Shown piece after piece: positions 47,479 through 54,390 of a stretch of 54,390 nucleotides of DNA. The notes beneath the pieces are model-generated. The model was given only the letters and a program-made list of their open reading frames with translations, was not told where the DNA came from and ran no database searches. How positions within the stretch are numbered: the stretch's first letter is position 1; every line of letters starts with the position of its first letter. Location of the stretch: the NCBI RefSeq assembly GCF_001723685.1, contig NZ_MCBX01000040.1:1-54390 (forward strand). Direction: 5' to 3'. This DNA comes from Candidatus Marithrix sp. Canyon 246 (lineage in GTDB: Bacteria > Pseudomonadota > Gammaproteobacteria > Beggiatoales > Beggiatoaceae). Position numbers and translations under genes: made by a program.

Positions 47479-47555
<77 letters not shown>

Positions 47556-47571
47556 AATAAAATATCTCCCC

Positions 47572-47600
47572 ATTATAACAATCTAAAAAAAATAAGTCAA
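47572..47600 (-). promoter_or_regulatory. Sigma-70 promoter of elongator tRNA-Met
   Basis: On the minus strand TTGACT, a 17-bp spacer and TATAAT lie 16 bp upstream of the tRNA 5' end. The -35 overlaps the stop codon of the OsmC-family gene. Confidence 0.75.
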
Positions 47601-48010
47601 GCATTAATTTCATAATCATAGCTAATTTCGACACTATGTTTTAACATTTCAGCAACTGAACAGTATTTTTCAACCGATAACTGCACTGCTTGTTGTACAT
47701 GTTTTTCATTTAAATTATCACCTGTGATGATAAAATGCAGATGAATTTTGCTAAAAATTTTAGGGATGCTATCTCGACGCTGACTATCAATTTCGATTAC
47801 ACAATCTGTAATATTTTGTCGCTTTTTTCTAAGAATTGTTAGAACATCCATGGTGGTACAACCACCTAAACCCATTAAAATCATTTCCATTGGACGAACA
47901 CCTAAATTACGCCCACCAATTTCTGCTGAACCGTCTATTATAAGGCTATGACCACTTTCCGATTCCGCCATTAAACATACATTTTCTATATGTTTTATAC
48001 GTGTTTTCAT
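47597..48010 (-). CDS. OsmC-family protein
   Basis: This 137-residue protein has the OsmC/YhfA fold motifs: GGRNLGVRPMEMILMGLGGCTTMDVLTILRKK with the first Cys and VQLSVEKYCSVAEML with the second Cys. Such peroxidatic Cys pairs reduce organic hydroperoxides in OsmC and Ohr proteins. The YhfA-like subgroup is less well characterised. It is divergent from the J-domain cluster across about 40 bp and convergent with nothing; its 3' end meets the tRNA promoter. Confidence 0.88.
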   Translation of the reverse strand: MKTRIKHIENVCLMAESESGHSLIIDGSAEIGGRNLGVRPMEMILMGLGGCTTMDVLTILRKKRQNITDCVIEIDSQRRDSIPKIFSKIHLHFIITGDNLNEKHVQQAVQLSVEKYCSVAEMLKHSVEISYDYEINA

Positions 48011-48051: not shown

Positions 48052-49128
48052 ATGATATTAAAAAATAATAATCTTTCTAATAAATTACTGTTGATTTTTA
48101 TTGGTATTTTACTTTTGATATTATCAGCAGTAATTATAAATGCTAGTATAAGTCAAGTTGATCAACCCACAGCTGCTATTTTAGCTGGTGATGAAAAAGC
48201 GATTAAAAACTTAGAAAATGTTAATATTAACACTGCTAAGCAAATTATTAAAGATCAAAGAGTTAAACTGGCATTAGTGAAGTTTTATCTTGAAAAACAA
48301 AAATATCCATTTTTAACTTACTTAGATTTTCATTATGAATCAATTAAGGCTGACATTTTAACCGATGTTAATGTTTATAAGCTGATAAGGAATTTTTTTT
48401 ATAAAAAAATTGATGATAGTATCGAACTTGATCAATTTCAAAATGCCATGTTATTATTAGGCAGTTTAAAAAAAATTTATCCTGTTTCTGATGAATTATT
48501 AGAAAAATATCAGCAAATTCAAACCAAGAAACAGCAACGTTTAGCTGTTCTGACTCAACAATATATTGAATGTTTAGATCAAAGTTTGGCTCCTTTACTT
48601 GAAAGAACTCATTGTATGGCAGAAGCTAGAACAGAAATTGAAAAAGTTGGTATTGAACATAGTTTGCCGATAGATGCTAATTTACCAGCTATGTATGCTG
48701 AGGAGATTAGACATGCTTTAACTAAGAAAAATTATTATCAAGCTGAAAGATTATTGTTAGATTGGCAAAAATTATTACCTGATGTCTCTGAACAACGCGA
48801 TGCACAGAAAGCCATTTTAATTCTTCATAGGCAATTAAAAAGTATTATTGTTGATTTAATTGGTAATGATAAAACCAAAATTGTAAAAAGATTAAGTCAA
48901 TTAAATACTGCTCCAATTTTACAACAAGAAATACTGGCAATGTCTCAAATTCAAAATAATTTGTTAGCATTTCATTTGAATCAAGCATTAGTATTATTAT
49001 CTGCTAAAGATAATAATATTAAAATCCCAGCAAATATTAAAGAAGAATTAAAGGCTATTTTAAACGCAGAAGAACAAGTAGTAAATGATATTTTTTTATC
49101 ATTACCTATACCTATTAACAAACTTTAA
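48052..49128 (+). CDS. Membrane-anchored J-less paralogue of the adjacent J-domain proteins
   Basis: This 358-residue protein has a TM helix near residues 13-32 with positive residues before it (N-in) and a periplasmic domain. Its core is clearly paralogous to the two J-domain proteins: [69 protein letters not shown] and ERLLLDWQKLLPDVSEQRDA. It lacks the J domain, the TPR-like part and the charged tail. The start at 48052 is the ATG in front of the TM helix. It is the first gene of the cluster, 6 bp before the J-domain gene. The core matches no family I know. Confidence 0.72.
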   Translation: MILKNNNLSNKLLLIFIGILLLILSAVIINASISQVDQPTAAILAGDEKAIKNLENVNINTAKQIIKDQRVKLALVKFYLEKQKYPFLTYLDFHYESIKADILTDVNVYKLIRNFFYKKIDDSIELDQFQNAMLLLGSLKKIYPVSDELLEKYQQIQTKKQQRLAVLTQQYIECLDQSLAPLLERTHCMAEARTEIEKVGIEHSLPIDANLPAMYAEEIRHALTKKNYYQAERLLLDWQKLLPDVSEQRDAQKAILILHRQLKSIIVDLIGNDKTKIVKRLSQLNTAPILQQEILAMSQIQNNLLAFHLNQALVLLSAKDNNIKIPANIKEELKAILNAEEQVVNDIFLSLPIPINKL

Positions 49129-49134
49129 AAACCA

Positions 49135-51153
49135 ATGTCATTATATAAATATTATAAAATCTTAGGTGTCAAATCCAATGCTAGCCAAGATGAAATTAAA
49201 AAGGCTTATCATAAATTAGCTTATAAATATCATCCTGATGTAAGCACTGAAGCTAATTCAGAACAAAAATTTCAGCAAATTAATGAGGCTTATAAAGCAC
49301 TCAAAAATAAAGCTAACTCGAATAAGAAAAGTTCCAGATTACCCATTGTTATGGGAATGATGTTGCTGGCAATAGCTGCGGCTATTGGATTTAATCAATT
49401 TTCTTCAAATTATCGAGACATACAAACTGGTATTTTAAAAGGTGATTCAAATGCCATACAAAGCTTAGAACAAGCGGATATTAAGATCGCTAAAAAAATT
49501 ATTGATGGCACTGATGTCAAGCCAGCATTGATTGATTTTTATCTTAAAAATCCAGATGTTTGGAGTAAGTTAAATTCTTATAATGATTCAATAAGAAGCG
49601 CGATATTAAAAGATGAGACAGTTTATCGTCGTTTAAGAGATTATTATTATCAGAAAATTAATGATGCAGTTAGCCAAAATAAATATAAAGAAGCTCTGAC
49701 TTTTTTGGGTATATTAAAACACGAATATCCTAAAGCATCAGAATTATCTCATAAAAATCAAGAAATTCAGGAGAAAAAACAACAACGTTTAGCCGCTCTG
49801 ACTCAAAAATATATGGATTGTCTATATAAAACTTGGGTACCTTTGTTAGAAAGAACACATTGTATGGCTGCGGCTAGAAATAAAATTGAATTGGTAGGAA
49901 TTGAACATGAATTGCCTACTGATTCTAATTTACCCAGAATGTATTCTAAGGAAGTTAGACTGGCTTTAAAAGATAAAAAGTATGATCATGCTGAAGAATT
50001 GTTATTAGATTGGGAAAAGTTATTACCAGCTAAGTCTGAACAACGTGATGCTTTTAAACAAATTTTATTTGTTAGACAAGAGCGTGATACCATTGTTGCT
50101 GATTTATCAGGTGGTGATCAAATGCAAATTGCAAAACGACTTCATCAATTGAGTGTTGATCCAATTGTACAACAAGAGATATTTGAAATACCAAAAGTTA
50201 AAAGGAATTTATTGAAGTATAATTTTAATGAAATAGTTACCATAATTGCTAGTAATCATGGTGCGCTGGCTTCAGATTATGAAAATAAATTAAAGGGAAT
50301 TTTAACTCTTCCAAAACCAGAACCTGTTATACCACCTCCACTTCCACCAATAGCACAAATACCAATTGTACCGACACCAATTGTACCAATACCAACTCCT
50401 AGTCAACCTGAAGATACATCTATCAATGAGACTAGTCAAATAACTAACTTATTGGATGAATGTAAAAATTTATTTAACAAAAACTCTTTAACTACTGGCA
50501 GAGAAACTGCATTCTCTTGTTATCAAAATGTTTTGCAAATTGAGCCAAATAACACTCAAGCTTTACATGGTATAAAAAATATTGAGAATAAATATTTTTT
50601 ATGGGCTGATAGTTCTTTAAGAAGAAAACAATTTAGTCGTGTTAAATCTTATATAGTTGCTTTGCAAAAAGTGAATCCTAATTCATGGCGGTTGACTAAG
50701 TTAAAAAGGAATTTGAAAACAGCACAGGAAAACCATCAATTGGCTATTGAAGAAGCTAAAGCAGCCGAAATTGCTAGACGTAAGACTGAAAGATTTAAAG
50801 CTGCTGAAGATGCAATTGCCAGAGAAAAAGCGGCTCAAGCAGCTATATTGAAGGCGGATAGAGAAGCTAGATTGAAAGCTTATAGGGAAGAAAGAGCTGC
50901 TAGAGAAAAAGCGGCTAGAGAAGCTAGATTGAGGGCAGCTAGAGAAGCTAGAGAAAAAGCGGCTAGATTGAGGGCAATTAGAGAAAAAGCGGCTAGATTG
51001 AAAGCAGCTAGAGAAGCTAGAGAAAAAGCTAAAGTGGAACAAGCGACTAATTTAAGAGCTAATTCTTGTTCTGAAATTCTGACACAATTATCTATGGGTG
51101 TTAAACCTCTAACTCCCGGGCAACAATCTTATTTCCAAACCAGATGTCGTTAA
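49135..51153 (+). CDS. Membrane-anchored J-domain protein with periplasmic charged tail
   Basis: This 672-residue protein has a J domain (2-60) with HPD at 33-35, a TM helix (about 70-86), a periplasmic core shared with its neighbours (about 93-395), a proline-rich linker (394-425), a TPR-like region (434-535, [12 protein letters not shown]), a charged Ala/Arg/Glu/Lys helix (536-640) and a C-terminal motif [21 protein letters not shown]. Conserved Cys pairs are Cys229/243, 443/462 and 645/671. The J domain should recruit DnaK in the cytoplasm; the rest should be periplasmic. The family is unknown beyond the J domain. Confidence 0.78.
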
Positions 51154-51165
51154 AGGAAAAGTTAA

Positions 51166-52119
51166 ATGTTTTATACTAAATTAATATTGGTAGTGACTAT
51201 ACTGAGTTCATGTACAACAGAAGAACAGACGGTTCGTATTACTAAACCGCCTGAAATTCCTAAACCACCGAATTTAATTATAGAGCCAGAAGAGCCAATT
51301 GCTGAAAAGCTTAAAATTGAAACCGAAGCTTTGAACAAGAAAGCTGATGCTATGCTTGAAGTTGTGAAAAAACCACAACCAAAACCAAAACCGAAACCAA
51401 AACCAAAACCAAAAAAGGTAATAACACACAATTATCAAACTAGCCCAATGTATTTAAAGGAGAAGCACTTTGATGGCTTAGTAATTTTAGCGGCAAATTT
51501 AATTGATACATTAGCCAATAAAAAATATTATGAGTCTTTGGATACTAAAAGTTTAATTGAAGAAGCAGAAAAATTGTCTGCAAATAAAGATTATGAACAG
51601 TCTTTATTGTTATTTTATTTAGCATCTGAACGAAAAGATAGCCCATTAAAAGTCACTTATTTGGAGCTATATCAAAATGCTCGTAATTTAAATCATCAAG
51701 TAGCGGCTTCTGATGCTTTTCAACGATTATTAGCTCAGAACCTTCTCGAAACTAAAAAATTGACATTTAAATTTTTATTTACCCCTCAAACAAGCGTATT
51801 TACTGATGATAAGGATTTAAGGAAAGAATATTCATTTTGGTTACATGAAATTGTTAAATATTTTCAAAATAATAAACGTTGTTTTCAAATAATTGGTCAT
51901 ACCGGTAAAGAAGAAACAGATAATCCTAAGCAATTATCTTTACAACGAGCTAAAAAAATTCAACTGATGATGAAGGTTAATTTTCCAATGGTTATAGAAA
52001 GATCAACCCTAATTGCTCAAGGAGACAAGGCAAATATTCTAGGGATTGGCACTAATAATATGATGGATATCCTTGATCGTCGCGTTGAACTTAACATCAT
52101 TAATTGCGCGTCACTTTAA
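51166..52119 (+). CDS. OmpA-family lipoprotein with Lys-Pro linker
   Basis: This 317-residue lipoprotein has its lipobox Cys at residue 16 (ILSSC). A K-P repeat (PKPKPKPKPKPKK, near residues 70-83) makes a stiff linker. Helical hairpin-like repeats follow (about 125-205), then an OmpA C-terminal-like domain with FLFTPQTSVFTDD, IIGHTGKEETDNPKQLSLQRAKKIQ and NMMDILDRRVELNI, which should bind peptidoglycan. AAAGGA precedes the ATG. It sits between the two J-domain genes, 12 bp and 8 bp from them, so it is probably part of the same assembly. Confidence 0.85.
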   Translation: MFYTKLILVVTILSSCTTEEQTVRITKPPEIPKPPNLIIEPEEPIAEKLKIETEALNKKADAMLEVVKKPQPKPKPKPKPKPKKVITHNYQTSPMYLKEKHFDGLVILAANLIDTLANKKYYESLDTKSLIEEAEKLSANKDYEQSLLLFYLASERKDSPLKVTYLELYQNARNLNHQVAASDAFQRLLAQNLLETKKLTFKFLFTPQTSVFTDDKDLRKEYSFWLHEIVKYFQNNKRCFQIIGHTGKEETDNPKQLSLQRAKKIQLMMKVNFPMVIERSTLIAQGDKANILGIGTNNMMDILDRRVELNIINCASL

Positions 52120-52127
52120 TTAATATT

Positions 52128-54390
52128 ATGGCTTCCAATAAATATTTTTATCAAGTATTGGGAGTTCAGTCAAATGCTAATCAAGATGAAATTAAGCAAG
52201 CCTTTCATAAGCTAGCTCATAAATATCATCCTGATACTAGCACTGAACCCAATGCAGAACAAAAATTTCAAGACATTAATGAGGCTTATACAGCACTCAG
52301 AAATAAAAAACCAGTTAATAAGAAAAGATCAAAATTACCCATAATTGCAGCAGCAATTGTTGGAATAACTTCTTTAGTTGCTATTATAAGCTTTTTTTAT
52401 CAAAATTCATTCAATACTCAAGAAATACAAACTGGTATTTTAAATCATAATTCAGAAGCAATTCACAGTTTAGAAAATGCTAATATTAATTTTGCTAAAA
52501 AAGTCATTTCAGGCACTGGTGTTAAAGTTGCCTTAATTGATTTTTATCTGAAAAATCCTCCTTTATGGAAGAAATTAGATTCTTATCATAATTCAATTAG
52601 AACAAACATATTAAAAGATGATCAAGTTTATCGTCGTTTAAGGGATCATTATTATCATCAAATTGATAATGAAATTAAAGAAGATAAGTTTAAAAAAGCA
52701 ATGCCTTTATTGGGTGAAATAAAAAAAGCCTATCCTAAAAAATCAGAATTATTTCATAAGTATCAACAAATTCAGGAAAAAAAACAACAACGTTTAGCCG
52801 CTATGACTCAAAAATATATGGATTGTCTATATAAAACTTGGGTGCCTTTATTAGAAAGAACTCATTGCATGGTGGATGCGCGAGATACAATTAAAACTGT
52901 TGGGATTGAACATGATTTACCAATTGATGCCAATTTACCTGCAATGTATGCTAAGGAAGTTAGACTGGCTTTAAAAGATCAAAACTATGATCATGCTGAT
53001 GATATATTGTTAGATTGGGAAAAATTATTACCAGCTAATTCAGGGCAACGCGATGTTTTAAAAGATCTTTTATATTTAAGGCGTGAACGTGAAAATATTG
53101 TTGTAGATTTGTCTGGTAATGACAAAATGCAAGTTGCAAAAAGACTGCATCAACTCAGTGCTGATCCTGTTTTGCAACAGCAAATCCTTGAAATAGCCAA
53201 GGTTAAAAATAATATATTGAAATATCAATTCAATGATTTATTAACCATAATTGCTAGTAATTATGGAGAGATGTCTCCAAATAATGAAAGTAAATTAAGA
53301 GAAATTTTAGAAATTCCTGAAGAAGTTGAAGACGAAGATAAAACAATTGTTGCAAATACACCAATAGCTATTCCAATTCCAATTCAAACAACAGCAACTG
53401 AAGAAGTAAAAACTAATAATAAAACTGATACTTTATTAACTGAATGTCAACAACTTTATAATAAGAATTATTTAACTCGTGGTAAAAACACTGCCTTATC
53501 TTGTTATAGGAAAGTTCTAAAAATAGAACCAAATAATAATCAAGCTTTAGATGGTCTTAATAATATAGAAAATAAATATTATGTATGGGCAGATAGTAAT
53601 TTAAGGAAAAACAAATTTGGTCGTGTTAAGTTTTATATACAGGCTTTACAAAAGTTTAATTCTAATTCTTCGCGTTTAACTGGTTTAAAAGAAAAATTAA
53701 ATGCGGCACAGCGGCAAACAGTGGCAGAAGCTAATCAAGCTACAAAAGTTAAGGAAGCGGCAAAATTAGCAAGACTAAAAGTTTCTAAAGAAAAAGCGGT
53801 TAAAGAAAGAGAAGCTCGATTGAAGGCTGATAAAGAAAGAGCGGCTAAACGTAGATCTGCTAGATATAAAGTTGCTAAAGCAAAGGTTGCTAAAGAACGA
53901 GCTGCTAAACGTAAAACTGCTAATGCAAAGGCTGCTAAAGAACGAGCTGCTAAACGTAAAGTAGCGAGAGCAAAGGCTGTTCAAGAAAGAGCAGCTAAAC
54001 GTAAACTAGCGAGAGCAAAGGCTGCTAATGAAAGAAAGGCTGCTAAACGTAAAGTAGCAAGAGCAAAAGCTGCTAATGAAAGAGCGGCTAAACGTAAACT
54101 AGCGAGAGCAAAGGCTGCTAATGAAAGAAGGGCTGCTAAACGTAAAGTAGCAAGAGCAAAAGCTGCTAATGAAAGAGCGGCTAAACGTAAACTAGCGAGA
54201 GCAAAGGCTGCTAATGAAAGAAAGGCTGCTAAACGTAAAGTAGCAAGAGCAAAGGCTGCTCAAGAAAGAGCGGCTAAACGTAAACTAGCGAGAGCAAAGG
54301 CTGCTAATGAAAGAAGGGCTGCTAAACGTAAAGTAGCAAGAGCAAAAGCTGCTAATGAAAGAGCGGCTAAACGTAAACTAGCGAGAGCAA
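52128..54390 (+). CDS. Second membrane-anchored J-domain protein, partial (runs off contig)
   Basis: The frame is open from the ATG at 52128 to the end, 754 complete codons. It has a J domain (2-60, KYHPDTSTEP), a TM helix near residues 67-90, and the shared core with the conserved [16 protein letters not shown] segment and its Cys pair. A shorter linker and a TPR-like region (CYRKVLKIEPNN) follow. From about residue 566 it is a basic Ala/Lys/Arg repeat array, alternating 15- and 16-residue units such as RAAKRKLARAKAANE. The C-terminus is missing. Confidence 0.78.
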   Translation, partial: MASNKYFYQVLGVQSNANQDEIKQAFHKLAHKYHPDTSTEPNAEQKFQDINEAYTALRNKKPVNKKRSKLPIIAAAIVGITSLVAIISFFYQNSFNTQEIQTGILNHNSEAIHSLENANINFAKKVISGTGVKVALIDFYLKNPPLWKKLDSYHNSIRTNILKDDQVYRRLRDHYYHQIDNEIKEDKFKKAMPLLGEIKKAYPKKSELFHKYQQIQEKKQQRLAAMTQKYMDCLYKTWVPLLERTHCMVDARDTIKTVGIEHDLPIDANLPAMYAKEVRLALKDQNYDHADDILLDWEKLLPANSGQRDVLKDLLYLRRERENIVVDLSGNDKMQVAKRLHQLSADPVLQQQILEIAKVKNNILKYQFNDLLTIIASNYGEMSPNNESKLREILEIPEEVEDEDKTIVANTPIAIPIPIQTTATEEVKTNNKTDTLLTECQQLYNKNYLTRGKNTALSCYRKVLKIEPNNNQALDGLNNIENKYYVWADSNLRKNKFGRVKFYIQALQKFNSNSSRLTGLKEKLNAAQRQTVAEANQATKVKEAAKLARLKVSKEKAVKEREARLKADKERAAKRRSARYKVAKAKVAKERAAKRKTANAKAAKERAAKRKVARAKAVQERAAKRKLARAKAANERKAAKRKVARAKAANERAAKRKLARAKAANERRAAKRKVARAKAANERAAKRKLARAKAANERKAAKRKVARAKAAQERAAKRKLARAKAANERRAAKRKVARAKAANERAAKRKLARA
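53830..54390 (+). repeat. Coding tandem repeat, 93-bp unit, 186-bp higher-order unit
   Basis: From about 53940 the DNA repeats with a 93-bp period (15 + 16 codons). The KA/RA choice alternates to make a 186-bp higher-order period (anchors AAAGAAAGGC at 54031 and 54217, AAAGAAGGGC at 54124). Earlier units (53830-53940) are more diverged. The contig ends inside the array. Confidence 0.9.

Follow-up and report, generated by a model that had tools for sequence, protein, structure and literature searches.

The last 6.3 kb of a 54,390-nucleotide contig of Candidatus Marithrix sp. Canyon 246 carry four genes, g1 to g4, that encode three membrane proteins with a shared core and one OmpA-like lipoprotein. 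The entire contig (C14 of genome G000) was analysed and is called the window here. We lean towards the reading that g2 and g4 belong to a kinase lineage and are envelope receptors whose kinase gave way to a J domain, changing the output from phosphorylation to DnaK recruitment, and that they are docked to an outer-membrane-type lipoprotein. Their architecture and evolution are well supported; the mechanism we infer. More tentatively, and with somewhat less than even confidence, we propose that the window holds one version of a modular system in the envelope of large sulfur bacteria that has not been described before. In this system a TPR-C module and a Cys-bracketed tail would pair with dedicated OmpA-like lipoproteins, Ser/Thr kinase, J domain, caspase and Ig-like sensors would be interchangeable, and in the version of the window Hsp70 recruitment would replace phosphorylation. 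The four genes lie on the + strand within 48052-54390 with intergenic gaps of 6, 12 and 8 bp. The genes and their parts are as follows (TM, transmembrane).

48052..49128, + strand: g1, short inside N terminus, TM helix and core, without J domain, TPR-C module or tail; core profile E 1.1e-122
49135..51153, + strand: g2, J domain, TM helix, core, Pro linker, TPR-C module, basic repeats and C-terminal tail
49135..49317, + strand: J domain of g2, 61 codons, HPD intact
49339..49395, + strand: TM helix of g2, with a positive N flank
49399..50319 (aa 89-395), + strand: core of g2, predicted periplasmic and helical, homologous by sequence comparison to a Ser/Thr kinase ectodomain
50446..50727 (aa 438-531), + strand: TPR-C module of g2
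51055..51150, + strand: C-terminal tail of g2, 32 residues
51166..52119, + strand: g3, lipoprotein with lipobox LSSC (Cys at aa 16, by eye), Pro/Lys linker and OmpA-like domain
51808..52026, + strand: OmpA-like domain of g3, Arg of LSxxRA kept, GHTG in place of GHxD
ATG 52128..54390, + strand, open at the contig end: g4, J domain, TM helix, core, linker, TPR-C module and long basic repeats

The kinship to kinases was found through the core. The three core proteins align with one another, g1 and g4 being 45% and 56% identical to g2, whereas the core gave no usable match to Pfam, NCBIfam, PHROGs, PADLOC or the PDB sequences. The original prediction had described a shared core that it could not match to a known family and had suggested a profile search. 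The sharing was confirmed and the databases gave nothing usable, but the search reached kinase ectodomains in genomes of the class, and by sequence comparison the "unmatched" core is a homologue of the ectodomain of transmembrane Ser/Thr kinases. When the g2 core was used as a single sequence, 27 of the 42 genomes of the order were matched; the core profile matched 30, including a doubtful match in G015 with two internal stops. In the class, 31 of 369 genomes gave a profile match, two of them family members. The profile includes three pseudokinase rows and the single-sequence search none; used by itself, the g2 core reached five non-family genomes among 274 of the class, with kinases at 1.2e-6. 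Outside the family, 30 core-matching loci were fetched (one weakly matching genome, G379, lies outside these 30), and 27 of them have a kinase domain on the same open reading frame (ORF). Four of the 27 were recognised by Pfam (L062-L065) and the rest by a kinase profile built from L062-L066, in which L066 was itself a seed. Of the three loci without one, L137 has an ORF that starts past the kinase and L141 lies at a contig end; L152 is a weak match in an unrelated-looking protein of G179 and was rejected.

When the J and J-less cores (17 rows, no kinases) were compared with the ectodomains of active kinases (10 rows) by hhalign, a probability of 99.4 was obtained over 158 collinear columns at 24% identity. 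Two cysteines of the g2 core, C229 and C243, are invariant across an alignment of 29 rows (J, J-less and pseudokinase), but not conserved in the active kinases. Pfam Pkinase was detected on the core-bearing ORFs of L058, L059, L061-L065 and L149, whereas g1, g2 and g4 gave no match to it. An AlphaFold2 (AF2) model of g2 aa 87-545 was all-helical with a predicted local distance difference test (pLDDT) of 74.8, and its fold search returned non-specific helical-repeat matches only (best Foldseek E 3.7e-3; Z up to 10.0 with poor root mean square deviation). Several fold matches to the TPR co-chaperone P58(IPK) were non-specific as well and no family was assigned. The NCBIfam matches to DotB, TolA and TonB and a CARF match (E 0.0089) were weak or below cut-off and were dropped.

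The kinases with this ectodomain (L062-L066, L125-L148) form a widespread gammaproteobacterial family, frequently with a C-terminal FGE-sulfatase-like domain and a PP2C neighbour, and sometimes in loci of the type VI secretion system (T6SS). No Pfam model matched the ectodomain of these kinases. Of the 24 loci L125-L148, 14 have a recognisable PP2C gene. By Pfam, L063 (G092) is a T6SS locus with VasE/TssK, DotU/TssL, IcmF/TssM, TagF and PP2C, followed by the core-bearing kinase. Two genomes of the same family as the window genome, G037 and G038, have the kinase version inside T6SS loci (L149, L150), with TagF and PP2C. A small T6SS-linked protein after the PP2C gene of L150 (11976-12764) has a TPR-C-like module without the tail.

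Within the family, the cytoplasmic end varies while the core stays the same: some proteins have an active kinase there, others a dead kinase or a J domain, and others have nothing. The kinase-TM-core proteins of three family genomes (G041, G017, G002) are pseudokinases. All three lack the VAIK Lys, the Glu, the catalytic Asp and both aligned glycines of the glycine loop, and retain the DFG Asp, while 12 of 14 comparison kinases have all nine positions. The two exceptions are L147, where the DFG Gly and the two loop glycines are changed, and L165, in which the catalytic-loop Lys is missing and the VAIK Lys does not fall in the aligned column. In a 43-core tree with its root on 11 active kinases, the pseudokinases form one clade (100/96) and the J and J-less proteins another (97/82). 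With four labels for the cytoplasmic end the tree needs 6 changes (21.1 when shuffled), and with J alone 5 changes (13.9 when shuffled). The simplest history would be that J was gained once, after the lineage had separated from the kinases, and then lost four times. Genus g20 shows such a loss: the J domain is intact in G031 and there is none on the core ORF of G033. In G032 of this genus it is on a separate overlapping ORF with HPE, which was tallied as J-less and may reflect a sequencing frameshift. The three core copies in the genus of the window are a local triplication, with g1 as the J-less and tail-less copy.

Two further observations were made on these loci. The three transmembrane pseudokinases L058, L059 and L061 each have, directly upstream, a small gene for a lipoprotein-like product of 130-154 aa that matched no Pfam model. 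In L048 (6559-9803, G040), the J-core gene and its OmpA gene are each split into two ORFs, perhaps by assembly error or decay.

The J domains themselves were readily recognised. Pfam DnaJ matched g2 with 71.9 bits and g4 with 67.1 bits (cut-off 27.8), and the HPD motif is intact in both. With a J domain and HPD motif, g2 and g4 carry the sequence feature expected of class C of the J-domain proteins. Among 21 J domains, 19 retain HPD. In comparison with Candidatus Marithrix, the ratio of nonsynonymous to synonymous changes (dN/dS) was 0.117 for the J domain of g2 (61 codons) and 0.252 for the g2 core; the J domain evolves more slowly, and a 44-codon linker evolves fast (1.88). A value for g1 had been computed out of frame and was discarded. 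The membrane topology was read from the Lys and Arg residues before and after the TM helix, which number 2/11 and 0/15 in g1, 6/15 and 2/15 in g2 and 7/15 and 0/15 in g4. Since they are concentrated N-terminal of the helix, the J domains are predicted to be cytoplasmic and the cores and the remainder periplasmic. As a prediction, this supports the topology proposed originally, with J inside and core, linker and tail outside. All 42 genomes of the order have Hsp70-family matches, 1 to 14 per genome. A dedicated Hsp70 partner was considered and rejected: by eye, the Hsp70-family matches of the J-bearing genomes are not distinguishable from the others.

The original prediction had missed the C-terminal TPR module and the tail, which are common to kinase and caspase proteins. 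The tail has four invariant columns in 29 rows, two of which are Cys. At E 0.01, the tail profile gave 45 matches in 28 of the 42 genomes of the order; at E 0.001, it was found in 3 of the 369 class genomes, all three family members. The TPR-C module is present in 42 of the 46 tail-bearing ORFs of the loci read, the exceptions being a fragment of g4 on contig C7, L222 and both caspase proteins. In L222 the match to the tail (G039:C1:328833) is mid-protein and not at the end; it was taken as chance and is still among the 45. A suspected resemblance of the tail to SHOCT had no support from Pfam. The other parts of the tail proteins are J-TM-core, core without J, kinase-TM (L209, L165), caspase domain (L159, L171, the tail of L171 being weak), Ig-like domain (L219 by Pfam, L167 by eye) or a short inside segment (L175, L177, L208, L210-L212, L214-L218, L220). 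The window's own genome contains one of the caspase proteins: L159 (7369-9716, G000:C34) is a Peptidase_C14 lipoprotein that ends in the same tail, and a gene for a g3-type OmpA lipoprotein comes after it.

The lipoprotein g3 belongs to a paralogous family with 49 match places in 25 of the 42 genomes, four of them in the genome of the window. It scored 23.4 bits against Pfam OmpA, under the curated cut-off of 27.2, which its relatives in L040, L046, L049, L057 and L158 exceed; the AF2 model of g3 (pLDDT 46.8) was not used. A g3-type OmpA gene follows downstream on the same strand within 3 kb at 25 of the 45 tails, where about 0.032 would be expected by a rough estimate from rounded genome sizes. 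In L165 one further ORF lies between the two genes. The kinase tails (L209, L165) and the caspase tails (L159, L171) also have the OmpA gene downstream. All 25 lipoprotein-bearing genomes are among the 28 tail genomes of the 42 (Fisher 1.3e-8), and in the 29 kinase-side loci outside the family no g3-type OmpA match was found. The lipoprotein occurs anywhere in the genome in 17 of 17 J-bearing and 4 of 9 J-less genomes (p 0.0019, kinship uncorrected); this comparison leaves out the three pseudokinase genomes, of which none has the lipoprotein, and G001, whose J protein was found only via the tail. The expected conservation together in related genomes was borne out, with the OmpA gene immediately downstream in 12 of the 16 assessable J-bearing genomes; it is unlinked in G009, G010, G013 and G030, and G014 is at a contig end.

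In a lipoprotein tree of 38 rows, 8 of the 9 rows with short-segment partners fall into one 100/100 clade together with 2 unpaired rows, and the J partners need 4 changes as compared to 9.7 when shuffled. The lipoproteins cluster by partner more than by genome, because G027, G028 and G039 each have one in each group. The original prediction had the OmpA domain holding peptidoglycan. We place residues D271 and R286 of the Acinetobacter baumannii OmpA in the GHxD and LSxxRA motifs, respectively. Both residues are reported to be critical for the diaminopimelate contact (PMC6572160). In 12 of 12 aligned rows of the g3 family the Arg of LSxxRA is kept and the Asp of GHxD is replaced by G, S or T (L048 reads GYST). 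Binding to peptidoglycan by the usual contact is therefore doubtful.

Several observations weigh against a receptor with a J domain output that is paired with the lipoprotein. Nine core-bearing genomes have no J domain on the core ORF, and two J domains deviate, with HPE on a separate ORF (L015 2057-2395) and HAD (L213 4624-5799), so the J domain appears to be dispensable in places. The J domain of g4 has a dN/dS of 0.547, calculated from 61 codons with few changes. Individual placements in the core tree are unsure, since it contains long branches and 12 forks that are not resolved. The pairing is also incomplete. Among the 45 tails, 20 are without a downstream OmpA gene: 3 at contig ends, 2 in g4 copies that have it upstream and 15 unlinked, including one presumed chance match. 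Conversely, 24 of the 49 OmpA match places have no tail just upstream, although one of the 24 is part of a gene that is paired and another follows a weak caspase tail. Three genomes (G007, G024, G038) have a tail and no g3-type OmpA match. The lipoproteins with J partners fall in two places of their tree and not in one. Finally, six of the 29 seeds of the tail profile were taken from OmpA neighbourhoods and all six are paired; of the 23 seeds chosen by their core 11 are paired, as are 8 of the 16 tails that were not seeds.

We propose the following mechanism for g2 and g4. By analogy to the kinases with the same ectodomain, the core probably reads the state of the envelope. The TPR-C and tail end probably docks to the outer-membrane-type lipoprotein, is positioned by it or senses it. 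The J domain would bring DnaK to the cytoplasmic side of the inner membrane and trigger its ATPase there, and the recruited DnaK might remodel a nearby membrane client, as DjlA and DnaK do with the Rcs system of E. coli. In that system, overproduced DjlA is reported to loosen the contact between IgaA and RcsD via its co-chaperone function and to turn on Rcs (PMC11709261). An output by phosphorylation would thus have become an output by local chaperone recruitment, and J-less copies such as g1 may be assembly or dampening partners. Hsp70 co-chaperones are usually seen as folding helpers; a J domain in the place of a kinase would show chaperone recruitment as a transmembrane output. The exchange of kinase and J domain on one ectodomain would make such an output testable by domain swap. 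The pairing of tail and OmpA gives a handle on many uncharacterised envelope proteins of the Thiotrichaceae, including the caspase-like ones.

The same architecture could also serve as a structural tether, an envelope-spanning strut that runs from the inner membrane through helical repeats, basic and Pro linkers and the tail to the OmpA-like lipoprotein, with a J domain that only aids its own folding or assembly via DnaK and sends no signal. We consider this unlikely, but a serious alternative. In its favour, in 9 of the 26 genomes of the J and J-less group the J domain is gone from the core ORF while the core is kept, with TPR-C module and tail where the gene is complete. The HPE and HAD variants, the very long basic repeats of g4 and the tail proteins with a mere short inside segment plus OmpA (L175, L177, L214 and others) fit as well. 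Evidence to the contrary is that HPD is kept in 19 of 21 J domains and that the J domain in g2 has a low dN/dS. Kinase and PP2C are signalling pairs, and kinases that carry this ectodomain have a recognised PP2C gene in 14 of 24 loci. An improbable explanation is a co-chaperone for envelope biogenesis, in which the J protein brings DnaK to a translocon or secretion machine and the periplasmic part and the lipoprotein receive unfolded proteins. It would account for a J domain inside, helical repeats outside and an OmpA-like partner, and LbcA, a periplasmic TPR scaffold, is among the weak fold matches (E 0.073). These fold matches are non-specific, however, and no translocon, Bam or Lpt gene was recognised nearby by eye, without a systematic search. 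In addition, kinases and caspases bear the same tail module, and neither of them feeds proteins.

Very unlikely, in our view, is a T6SS regulator descended from PpkA-type kinases, with the J protein controlling T6SS assembly. It could be argued from the core-bearing kinases in the T6SS loci of G092, G037 and G038, and from a VipB match on another contig of the window's own genome (G000:C6:54-953, at the contig start). However, VipB was matched in just 5 of the 17 J-bearing genomes and not in G026, which is of the same genus and has all four genes. The stretches around the core gene that were read gave neither a T6SS-type nor a PP2C match, in the 17 J-bearing genomes (TssK, TssL, TssM, TagF and PP2C) as well as in the 9 J-less and 3 pseudokinase genomes. 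The scarcity of VipB and the lack of T6SS-type matches near the core genes make this role unlikely.

The arrangement of the locus is conserved. Among the named relatives found, the nearest is Candidatus Marithrix sp. BB16 (Thiotrichaceae). It has the identical order of four genes (L004) with g4 complete at 1065 residues, and the arrangement is therefore not due to chance. The four tight + strand genes of the original prediction, J-less protein, J protein, OmpA-like lipoprotein and J protein, thus stand as described; one correction concerns g4, whose truncation is an assembly break in the repeats. The contig stops inside these repeats, and this alone makes g4 incomplete. The missing end of g4 is very probably an ORF at the start of contig C7 (G000:C7:1-1029, locus L221), which has g4-like repeats and the tail (G000:C7:934-1026); the two genes after it are the same two as downstream of g4 in Candidatus Marithrix. 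The remaining features are given here.

53853..54390, + strand: tandem repeats of g4, units of 45 and 93 bp that encode a Lys/Ala/Arg-rich sequence; the assembly breaks here
47597..48010, - strand: small gene, divergent from g1 and outside the system

By eye, we take the small gene to be OsmC-like. It adjoins the core gene in 7 further loci (L004/L039, L042, L043, L045, L047, L050, L051), and from this recurrence the J-bearing and J-less versions are the same locus. A tRNA-Met gene lies just past it on the minus strand (window 47479-47555).

The original prediction considered this system to be undescribed, and we found no paper on its architecture in the literature searched, with most subscription papers outside the reach of the search; a survey of bacterial J proteins could still list it. 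Transmembrane kinases are already known as a kind. The same holds for class C J proteins with TM regions (PMC8215388). What looks new here is the exchange of kinase and J domain on one ectodomain, together with the family of tails and OmpA-like lipoproteins.

When compared to known systems, g2 and g4 share features with TolA, which is anchored in the inner membrane and has a long Lys/Ala-rich periplasmic stretch, but is without J domain and core. The match of the NCBIfam model TIGR02794 was weak (18.2 bits, cut-off 59.45) and covered only the repeat part of g2. With the OmpA/Pal lipoproteins, g3 has the lipobox, the linker and the C-terminal OmpA-like domain in common. It differs in scoring below the Pfam cut-off, and its family lacks the Asp expected to contact diaminopimelate (12 of 12 rows aligned). 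DjlA of E. coli has one TM helix and a cytoplasmic J domain as well, and, when overproduced, acts with DnaK on membrane signalling proteins (PMC11709261). However, the J domain of DjlA is C-terminal and accompanied by a TerB-like domain and a short periplasmic end, whereas in g2 and g4 it is N-terminal and the periplasmic part has several hundred residues; the NCBIfam DjlA model NF006948 gave 27.8 bits with g2 at a cut-off of 162. The likeness to the PpkA-type Ser/Thr kinases with their PP2C phosphatase (PppA), whose threonine phosphorylation pathway is described in PMC4348357, comprises a cytoplasmic catalytic domain, one TM helix and a periplasmic region. The ectodomain is homologous in addition, as set against the core-bearing kinases found here. 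On the side of the differences, 12 of the 17 J genomes have no VipB match, no PP2C match was found around the J genes, the tail is confined to the family in the class sample and no g3-type OmpA gene was found at the 29 outside kinase-side loci. Both g2 and g4 carry a J domain instead of the kinase.

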